In this document: positions 4,590-12,088 of the stretch, piece by piece | Layout: the number at the start of each line of letters is the position of its first letter | How positions within the stretch are numbered: the first letter of the stretch is position 1 | Assembly: GCF_019599185.1 (NCBI RefSeq) | Contig: NZ_JAIEUL010000018.1 | Span: 1 to 64,000 of the forward strand | Source of the DNA: Cryobacterium inferilacus | Lineage (GTDB): Bacteria; Actinomycetota; Actinomycetes; Actinomycetales; Microbacteriaceae | DNA: 64,000 bases | Direction of reading: 5' to 3' | The notes under the pieces: model-generated | What the model was told of the DNA's origin: nothing | What the model saw: only the letters and a program-made list of their open reading frames with translations | Databases searched by the model: none | Program-made: the position numbers and the translations under genes

Positions 4590-4616
4590 TTGGCACTCTC
4601 CCCCTTCGAGTGCTAA
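4590..4616 (+). promoter_or_regulatory. CIRCE operator (HrcA site) of hsp20
   Basis: TTGGCACTC-N9-GAGTGCTAA matches the CIRCE consensus TTAGCACTC-N9-GAGTGCTAA with a single mismatch and the exact 9-nt spacer. CIRCE is the binding site of the repressor HrcA. It lies over the probable promoter of the hsp20 gene at 4673. Confidence 0.85.
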
Positions 4617-4619
4617 CAT
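4590..4619 (+). promoter_or_regulatory. Probable sigma-A promoter of hsp20
   Basis: TTGGCA at 4590-4595 and TAACAT at 4614-4619 are separated by 18 bp. The CIRCE element occupies the whole -35 to -10 interval, so HrcA binding would exclude RNA polymerase. Transcription would begin near 4626, just ahead of the HAIR element. Confidence 0.6.
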
Positions 4620-4629
4620 TTTTTCCACA

Positions 4630-4648
4630 TTGAGTCACAGTGACTCAA
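4630..4648 (+). promoter_or_regulatory. HAIR operator (HspR site) of hsp20
   Basis: TTGAGT-N7-ACTCAA is a perfect inverted repeat here (spacer CACAGTG extends it to 9-bp arms about a central A). It matches the core of the HspR consensus CTTGAGT-N7-ACTCAAG. It sits between the proposed transcription start and the ribosome-binding site. A coding start at GTG 4640 would fall inside it, which argues for the start at 4673. Confidence 0.8.
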
Positions 4649-4672
4649 CTTCACGGAAGGGGAATCCTCATT

Positions 4673-5104
4673 ATGGCAATGTCTTTTGATCCTTTCAGCG
4701 AGCTGGACCGCCTCACCGGCGACCTGCTGCAGTTCAGGCCCGGGCCCCGGTTCATGCCGGTGGATCTGTACCGCGACCAGGATCAGTACATCCTCACCGC
4801 CGACCTGCCGGGTGTTGACCCGGGCTCGGTCGATGTGGATGTGGACGGCCAGCTGCTCACCGTGCGGGCCAACCGCACCGCGGCCGCGCACGAGAACGCC
4901 AAGTGGCTCACGCAGGAGCGCCCGCACGGCACCTACCTGCGCCAGTTCAGCCTCGGCGACGGGGTGGACTCCAGCCGCATCTCGGCCAGCTACGACAACG
5001 GCGTGCTCTCCGTGCACATCCCGGTGAGCGAGAAGGCCAAGCCGCGCAAGATCCAGGTCACGTCGGCGCCACAGTCGGATGAGGCCAAGTCCATCTCGGT
5101 CTAA
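4673..5104 (+). CDS. Hsp20 small heat-shock protein (alpha-crystallin family)
   Basis: This is a 143-residue ATP-independent chaperone that holds unfolding proteins in oligomeric assemblies. The alpha-crystallin domain spans about residues 28-130, with PVDLYRD at its start and the conserved A-x-Y-x-N-G-V-L-S-V segment (ASYDNGVLSV) near residue 107. It begins MAMSFDPFSELDRLTG. The paralogue at 11555-11983 starts in the same way, and GGAAGGGGAA (4655-4664) is well placed, so ATG 4673 is preferred over an in-frame GTG at 4640. CIRCE and HAIR operators upstream imply repression by both HrcA and HspR and release on heat shock. A strong hairpin at 5146-5181 ends the unit. Confidence 0.93.
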   Translation: MAMSFDPFSELDRLTGDLLQFRPGPRFMPVDLYRDQDQYILTADLPGVDPGSVDVDVDGQLLTVRANRTAAAHENAKWLTQERPHGTYLRQFSLGDGVDSSRISASYDNGVLSVHIPVSEKAKPRKIQVTSAPQSDEAKSISV

Positions 5105-11554: not shown

Positions 11555-11983
11555 TCAGCTGTTCAGCACGTGCTGCGTCTGCGGGGCGCTGGTCTGCACC
11601 TCGATCTTGCGCGGCTTCGCCCGTTCGCTCACCGGCAGCAGAAGCGACAGCACCCCGTTGTCGTAGTGCGCGGCGATGGCCTCGGCATCGATGCCCTCAC
11701 CGATGCTGAACTGGCGCAGGTAGGTGCCAGACGGTCGTTCCCGCACGAGCCAGTTCATCCCGCCGTCGGTAGCAGCGGTGCGCCGGGCCCGGATGGTGAG
11801 GAGCTGGCCGTCCATGTCGATATCGACGCTGTCCGGGTCCATGCCAGGCATATCGGCGTTGAGAATATAGCGGTCACCGTCGCGATAGAGGTCGACGGGC
11901 ATGAACCGCGGGCCCTGCGCGGTGCCGAGGAGTGCGCCGGTGAGGCGGTCCAACTCGGAGAAAGGATCAAAAGTCATAGCCAT
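11555..11983 (-). CDS. Second Hsp20 small heat-shock protein
   Basis: The 142-residue alpha-crystallin chaperone is clearly paralogous to the gene at 4673. Both begin MAM(S/T)FDPFSELDRLTG, both carry PRFMPVDLYRD near residue 25-35, and both have the ERP-x-GTYLRQFS block. The alpha-crystallin domain covers about residues 28-128. The promoter side differs: no CIRCE or HAIR element is present, but a good -35/-10 pair at 12059-12088 and a GC-rich inverted repeat at 12031-12050 are. The paralogues therefore seem to be wired to different signals. Confidence 0.93.
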   Translation of the reverse strand: MAMTFDPFSELDRLTGALLGTAQGPRFMPVDLYRDGDRYILNADMPGMDPDSVDIDMDGQLLTIRARRTAATDGGMNWLVRERPSGTYLRQFSIGEGIDAEAIAAHYDNGVLSLLLPVSERAKPRKIEVQTSAPQTQHVLNS

Positions 11984-12030: not shown

Positions 12031-12050
12031 CCGGAGCCCTCGAGCTCCGG
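12031..12050 (-). promoter_or_regulatory. Inverted repeat at the 5' end of the hsp20-2 leader
   Basis: CCGGAGC (12031-12037) and GCTCCGG (12044-12050) flank a 6-nt loop. With the proposed promoter, transcription would begin near 12052, placing the hairpin at the very 5' end of a leader of about 70 nt. It could be an operator or a 5' mRNA structure. Confidence 0.5.
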
Positions 12051-12058
12051 TCGGCAAA

Positions 12059-12088
12059 ATATTAACTCGTCTCGCGCGCCGGAATCAA
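12059..12088 (-). promoter_or_regulatory. Probable promoter of hsp20-2
   Basis: Reading the minus strand, TTGATT (12083-12088) is followed after 17 bp by TTAATA (12060-12065), or after 18 bp by TAATAT (12059-12064). Both boxes are close to the sigma-A consensus and stand out in GC-rich surroundings. Confidence 0.6.

Follow-up and report, generated by a model that had tools for sequence, protein, structure and literature searches.

A predicted HrcA/HspR dual-operator promoter on hsp20 in Cryobacterium inferilacus and related Actinobacteria

Introduction

In the accessible portions of the published work on Helicobacter pylori and Campylobacter jejuni, the repressors HrcA and HspR meet on one chaperone promoter, which carries a CIRCE-type site over the core promoter or the start together with one or more HAIR-type sites. 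The co-regulated operons of H. pylori are described there as being raised on disruption of hspR and affected by inactivation of hrcA. According to the cited passages, GroE aids the binding of HrcA, DnaK is the co-repressor of HspR and unfolded protein relieves both (PMC6032397, PMC8223512). An actinobacterial small heat-shock gene under HspR is described in Mycobacterium tuberculosis, namely acr2 (Hsp20 family), and the available text places acr2 and groEL2 under an interplay of PhoP, HrcA and HspR, with PhoP as the proposed recruiter (PMC7464140, PMC8223512). In Deinococcus radiodurans hsp20 likewise belongs to the HspR regulon (as cited in the available part of PMC2687793). The HrcA/HspR/ClgR network of Bifidobacterium, as given in the cited passages, has HAIR at dnaK and clpB and CIRCE at groES and groEL (PMC9004370), as does the genome considered here.

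We analysed the hsp20 locus of Cryobacterium inferilacus within a 64,000-nucleotide stretch of its genome, the whole of which we call the window. Comparison with related genomes makes it highly probable that positions 4590-4649 form a dual-repressor promoter for HrcA and HspR on hsp20, which would be released by saturation of the chaperones.

Results

The product of hsp20 has an HSP20/alpha-crystallin domain (PF00011, 81.3 bits against a cut-off of 20.8). We took ATG 4673, where the homologues begin, as its start; a longer start in the open reading frame list, GTG 4640, would fall within the HAIR. A promoter scan predicted a sigma-70-type promoter, TTGGCA-18-TAACAT (4590-4619), with a TG 5' of the -10 and 9/12 consensus matches; its -35, its spacer and half of its -10 are all covered by the CIRCE (Table 1). 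A preliminary description of this DNA had proposed a CIRCE with one mismatch on the hsp20 promoter, and the sequence, the score over 18 positions and the promoter scan agree on it, half of the -10 being covered. The HAIR palindrome that it had reported downstream of the promoter was also recovered, with a perfect inner core (TTGAGT-N7-ACTCAA). We infer a transcription start near 4626, about 7 bases past the -10; given that start, the HAIR core lies at about +5 to +23. The two palindromes are separated by 12 bp.

Table 1. Features of the hsp20 locus and its paralogue in the window
Feature	Position	Strand	Description
CIRCE (predicted HrcA operator)	4590-4616	+	TTGGCACTC-TCCCCCTTC-GAGTGCTAA, 1/18 mismatch
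-35 hexamer TTGGCA, within CIRCE	4590-4595	+	consensus prediction
-10 hexamer TAACAT with TG extension, half within CIRCE	4614-4619	+	consensus prediction
HAIR-type palindrome (predicted HspR operator)	4629-4649	+	core TTGAGTCACAGTGACTCAA at 4630-4648
Purine-rich ribosome-binding stretch GGAAGGGGA	4655-4663	+	by eye
hsp20 gene	4673-5104	+	143 aa small heat-shock protein, PF00011 E 6.2e-23
hsp20 paralogue, neither operator	11555-11983	-	operator scoring of 250 bp upstream

The two sites differ in statistical weight. Scanned with the consensus TTAGCACTC-N9-GAGTGCTAA and up to 3 mismatches, the hsp20 CIRCE was the sole match in the 64 kb window, and 100 shuffles of the window gave none. Across the genome the same threshold returned four places and 0 control matches; the sites precede groES (two), groEL (one) and hsp20 (one), and the exact inner arms are present a second time before groEL. 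The HAIR differs from the textbook CTTGAGT-N7-ACTCAAG by 2 mismatches, both at the outermost letters, and fully matches the minimal Streptomyces coelicolor consensus given in the cited passage, TTGAGY-N7-ACTCAA (PMC2687793). Scanned alone at up to 3 mismatches, it did not reach significance in the window, with 2 matches where 0.8 were expected and 21 of 100 shuffles reaching 2, so that the weight of the hsp20 HAIR comes from its position and its conservation. Genome-wide, HAIR matches (up to 2 mismatches, 8 places) were noisy and no rarer than those of the control (26), and the hsp20 HAIR is therefore not to be judged on its sequence alone; for this reason we gave the HAIR scan by itself no weight as evidence. 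Perfect HAIRs occur at two places, before clpB and dnaK, and the dnaK upstream region contains a second HAIR-like site, GTTGAGCC-N5-GACTCAAG. The regulon context supports the assignment of the two operators, groES and groEL in this genome being likewise preceded by CIRCE, and dnaK and clpB by HAIR; these four genes were identified by reading the sequences, without a family search.

Both repressor genes are present. The genome has an hrcA gene on contig C22 (PF01628, E 3.2e-53), a 218-aa stretch of whose product scores 130.5 bits against NCBIfam TIGR00331, for which the cut-off of 197.2 applies to the whole protein. The hspR gene lies 3' of dnaK, grpE and dnaJ (NF047375, 130.6 bits against an equivalog cut-off of 105), and among the matches listed for the genome this one, in the dnaK operon, is above the HspR cut-off. 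Both repressors are nearly universal in the family genomes sampled, HspR being over its cut-off in 96 of 100 Microbacteriaceae genomes and HrcA in 98 of 100.

The preliminary description had held that the hsp20 paralogue at 11555 has neither site, and this was borne out: the 250 bp upstream contain no CIRCE better than 7/18 mismatches and no HAIR better than 3/10. The promoter of the paralogue (TTGATT-18-TAATAT, window 12031-12088, minus strand) resembles that of hsp20 in geometry, and a different palindrome, CCGGAGC-N6-GCTCCGG, lies about where a HAIR would sit; it is common to the paralogue and its relative in another Cryobacterium genome, where it is upstream of that genome's hsp20 (L023). 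Two more hsp20-like genes occur in the genome, at G000:C10:71615-72007 and G000:C5:1804-2124; the first has neither operator in the 250 bp scored upstream.

We assessed conservation in the genus and in the family. An hsp20-like gene (E <= 0.001) was found in 26 of 57 Cryobacterium genomes. The 30 loci returned for the genus, some of them distant homologues, include 4 with a CIRCE (up to 5 mismatches) and 15 with a HAIR-like site (up to 3/14 mismatches; the one in L050 is probably spurious), and the HAIR core recurs at a similar place before the gene, its centre varying. In the nearest genus relative of hsp20 (G042, 86% identical protein) the CIRCE is kept and GAGCC-N5-GGCTC stands at the HAIR place, a degenerate version that counts against a strict need for HAIR. 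Across the family, the composite pattern GCACTC-N9-GAGTGC-N{2,32}-TTGAG-N9-CTCAA was found in 96 of 398 Microbacteriaceae genomes and 38 of 85 genera, while the reversed pattern used as a control gave 0 matches.

An unselected sample was made up of every hsp20 match at E <= 1e-30 in 100 family genomes, 64 matches in 53 of them, and the 250 bp before each were scored for CIRCE (up to 4/18 mismatches) and HAIR (up to 1/10); 9 of the 64 rows start off a start codon, so the scored stretch takes in a little coding sequence. Both sites were present before 32 genes from 32 different genomes, HAIR only before 10, CIRCE only before 5 and neither before 17. Of 6400 mononucleotide-shuffled upstream stretches, 0.06% had a CIRCE, 0.33% a HAIR and none the pair. 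The pair is thus the commonest hsp20 promoter class in this Microbacteriaceae sample (32/64), and its description as notable on an actinobacterial hsp20 needs correcting; since 17 of the 64 genes have neither site and 15 have one, an hsp20 promoter can do without the pair. On an hsp20 protein tree of 47 rows, which excluded the 32 short promoter loci that contain no complete gene as well as genus loci that were partial or distant, the promoter class changes 14 times, the minimum being 3 and the mean of shuffled labels 22.7; none of 200 shuffles came as low. Good support is confined to 4 of the 44 inner branches, and we therefore use the tree for one point only, that promoter class is clustered on it and, it seems, changed repeatedly even so.

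The family genomes also bear on whether the second palindrome is the operator of another regulator, such as the HspR-like gene that lies divergent beside some hsp20 genes. At least six HspR-like genes scoring under the HspR cut-off occupy this position in at least five family genomes (G111:C1:301848, G131:C3:91344, G131:C2:81220, G089:C1:537755, G106:C2:80128 and G118:C15:28716), and each may form a dedicated repressor pair with its divergent hsp20. The hsp20 neighbours of these six, however, all fall in the class with neither site (at least 6 of the 17), three of those upstream stretches (L243, L246 and L260) share another palindrome of the type TCGACATAGAT..GTCGA, and in the genome of the window the HspR match listed over the cut-off sits in the dnaK operon, with the HAIR-like site noted above upstream of dnaK. 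We regard another regulator as highly improbable.

To describe target and geometry, we scored 148 composite loci, made up of 118 stretches from a named scan and 30 of the 97 family-pattern matches (96 genomes, one with two), some genomes being in both sets. The named scan yielded at least 118 stretches, from which we draw no frequency; they come mostly from Microbacteriaceae genera and Arthrobacter, and the matches listed also include Actinomycetaceae, Actinomyces, Georgenia, Miniimonas, Bowdeniella, Brachybacterium and Scrofimicrobium, a Propionibacteriaceae MAG, an Eggerthellaceae MAG, one Pseudomonas record and one Arcobacter record. The pair precedes hsp20 in 139 of the 148 loci and stands at chaperone genes in 146. 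With phmmer, hsp20 was found within 350 bp in 136 loci (in the first 110, where longer reading frames were required, it was found in 100); in L076, L079 and L137 the hsp20 N-terminus is visible and the gene is cut by the end of the locus. By reading, the other targets are clpB in three loci (L096, L181 and L182), groES in three (L067, L129 and L145) and groEL in one (L162). Two of the 148, L058 and the Pseudomonas locus L082, have no adjoining chaperone gene, and their matches are probably due to chance. For the pair as a whole, we reject a chance origin on gene specificity, spacing and controls.

Some of these other targets deserve mention in their own right. In the three clpB loci the CIRCE is 5 bp from the HAIR, and dual control may thus also reach clpB in some relatives. 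Both motifs precede groES in an Arcobacter MAG (L129, 919-975), an Actinomycetota MAG (L067, 2531-2600) and the Eggerthellaceae MAG (L145), and they also occur on a groEL promoter of Actinomyces vulturis (L162). The HAIR of the Arcobacter locus lies between CIRCE and groES, whereas the HspR sites of C. jejuni groES are described as upstream in the accessible text.

The order CIRCE, HAIR, hsp20 was found in 128 of the 139 hsp20 loci, 126 of them identified with phmmer, which represent 119 distinct sites. Among the latter, 99 have a CIRCE-HAIR gap of 14-15 and all but one fall within 13-18, though the pattern allowed 2-32; measured in the same way, the gap in the window is 16. The one CIRCE mismatch of the window, an A-to-G change in the left arm, is shared by 92 of the 119 and yields TTGGCA or CTGGCA at the -35 place; because these are nearer to TTGACA than is TTAGCA, CIRCE seems here to have been adapted to the promoter. 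TAnnnT stands at the -10 place in 104 of the 119. The search pattern fixes the inner CIRCE arms, and their conservation therefore proves nothing; the free letters TAA past GAGTGC are nevertheless kept in the 58 sites with a gap of 14 (T in 58, A in 58, A in 54), while much of the CIRCE N9 is variable. In the same 58 sites the left flank of the HAIR is G in 47, outer letters other than C..G being typical of hsp20 HAIRs.

These features bear on the reading that only the CIRCE is active in this genome and that the HAIR-like palindrome is decaying or a chance occurrence. That reading would account for the 2 mismatches from the textbook HAIR, for the ease with which HAIR-like matches arise by chance and for the degenerate version in G042. 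It sits poorly with the family sample, in which a HAIR core at up to 1/10 mismatch precedes 42 of 64 hsp20 genes, ten of them without CIRCE, against 0.33% of shuffles, and with the near-fixed spacing, the outer letters typical of hsp20 HAIRs and the perfect core found here. We consider it improbable.

In 11 loci the order is reversed, the HAIR being upstream and the CIRCE adjoining hsp20, with gaps of 8-28. They comprise 4 Georgenia, 3 Actinomycetaceae/Actinomyces, Miniimonas, Bowdeniella, a Propionibacteriaceae MAG and an Actinomycetota MAG, and in the 8 that we read by eye the CIRCE seemingly still overlaps the likely core promoter. The reversed loci suggest more than one origin or rearrangement of dual control. 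They also weigh against taking the palindrome for a hairpin in the untranslated 5' leader of the mRNA, as its self-complementarity and its place downstream of the predicted start might lead one to do, for in these loci the HAIR is probably not transcribed. In addition, the HAIR centre differs from genome to genome and frequently lacks complementarity, and the palindrome here matches known HspR operators, as given in the available text, in length and core. A hairpin function is accordingly the explanation to which we give the very least credence.

Discussion

The preliminary description had made two claims about this promoter: that dual HrcA and HspR operators stand on hsp20, and that they act as an AND gate. 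The first, as a prediction, is well supported by comparison, both repressor genes being present and the pair, its spacing and its target recurring in other genomes; the second names one of three possible logics of release, AND, OR or cooperative. The recurrence before hsp20 in many related bacteria suggests control by two chaperone-linked sensors at once. In the mechanism that we propose, HrcA, which depends on GroE, would bind the CIRCE over the -35 and -10 and exclude RNA polymerase. HspR would act together with its co-repressor DnaK, occupying the HAIR that closely follows the start and halting transcription at initiation or in early elongation. Unfolded protein would occupy GroE and DnaK, both repressors would then be released and the vegetative polymerase would transcribe hsp20.

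How the two releases combine is a separate matter. There is about an even chance that the dual operators work synergistically or in an OR-like manner, the repressors binding cooperatively or both being needed for full repression, so that release of either repressor induces hsp20 and no AND gate exists. In the accessible reports, C. jejuni HrcA and HspR make direct contact and show cooperative binding, their sites being 27 and 11 bp apart, and in H. pylori repression of the co-regulated operons is held to need both repressors; the 12 bp between the palindromes here and the nearly fixed spacing agree with such an arrangement. On the other side, the HAIR here lies downstream of the core promoter, so that each repressor alone could block transcription, whereas on the co-regulated H. 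pylori and C. jejuni promoters it is described as upstream. Gaps of 14-16 place the centres of the sites 34-36 bp from each other, about 3.2-3.4 helical turns, and hence not on one face. The available text further reports that in vitro the two H. pylori repressors bind independently of each other and that the hrc promoter, a target of both proteins in C. jejuni, is not deregulated in an hrcA mutant, which fits an AND gate. In our analysis, the necessity of both repressors in H. pylori and the cooperativity in C. jejuni are easier to reconcile with synergistic or OR-like release than with a strict AND; taken together, the Campylobacterota precedents point both ways. Since HspR sits upstream of the core promoter on the co-regulated genes of H. 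pylori and C. jejuni, transfer of their logic to a downstream HAIR is uncertain.

Small heat-shock proteins hold unfolded clients for refolding by DnaK and GroE. A promoter reading both refolding machines would tie the supply of holdase to the shortage of refolding. We advance only tentatively, as a possibility with the balance against it, that the hsp20 promoter of Microbacteriaceae and Arthrobacter is a fixed-geometry integrator of GroE and DnaK that fires fully only with both saturated, and that the opposite order elsewhere reaches the same control. If true, the opposite order in other actinobacterial groups would reflect selection for the logic and not one inherited promoter. The near-fixed spacing, the homologues with one site or none and the reversed orders offer a comparative panel for how two chaperone-linked repressors combine.

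The open-access literature, as far as its available text extends, yielded no earlier description of a paired CIRCE and HAIR on hsp20 in these bacteria, which is weak evidence of absence; the Microbacteriaceae genome papers mention HspR and HrcA, and no such hsp20 pair was found in their accessible parts. Set beside the described systems, the promoter differs from each. On M. tuberculosis acr2 a CIRCE and HAIR pair is not described in the cited passages (PMC7464140, PMC8223512), and for D. radiodurans no HrcA/CIRCE partner is mentioned in the available part of the citing source (PMC2687793). In the cited passages on Bifidobacterium, hsp20 has a promoter without a consensus motif, and CIRCE and HAIR are listed on different genes (PMC9004370). 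In the accessible reports on H. pylori and C. jejuni the targets are groESL and the hrcA-grpE-dnaK operon, where HspR binds upstream of the core promoter at sites that are extended or multiple, whereas here a single predicted HAIR lies just downstream of the hsp20 -10, at near-fixed spacing and in Actinobacteria. The dual control predicted here would mean that the HrcA/HspR co-regulation which those reports describe in Helicobacter and Campylobacter also reaches a large number of Actinobacteria, and is, on the sequence comparison, a widespread putative variant of it, on hsp20 and with its own geometry.
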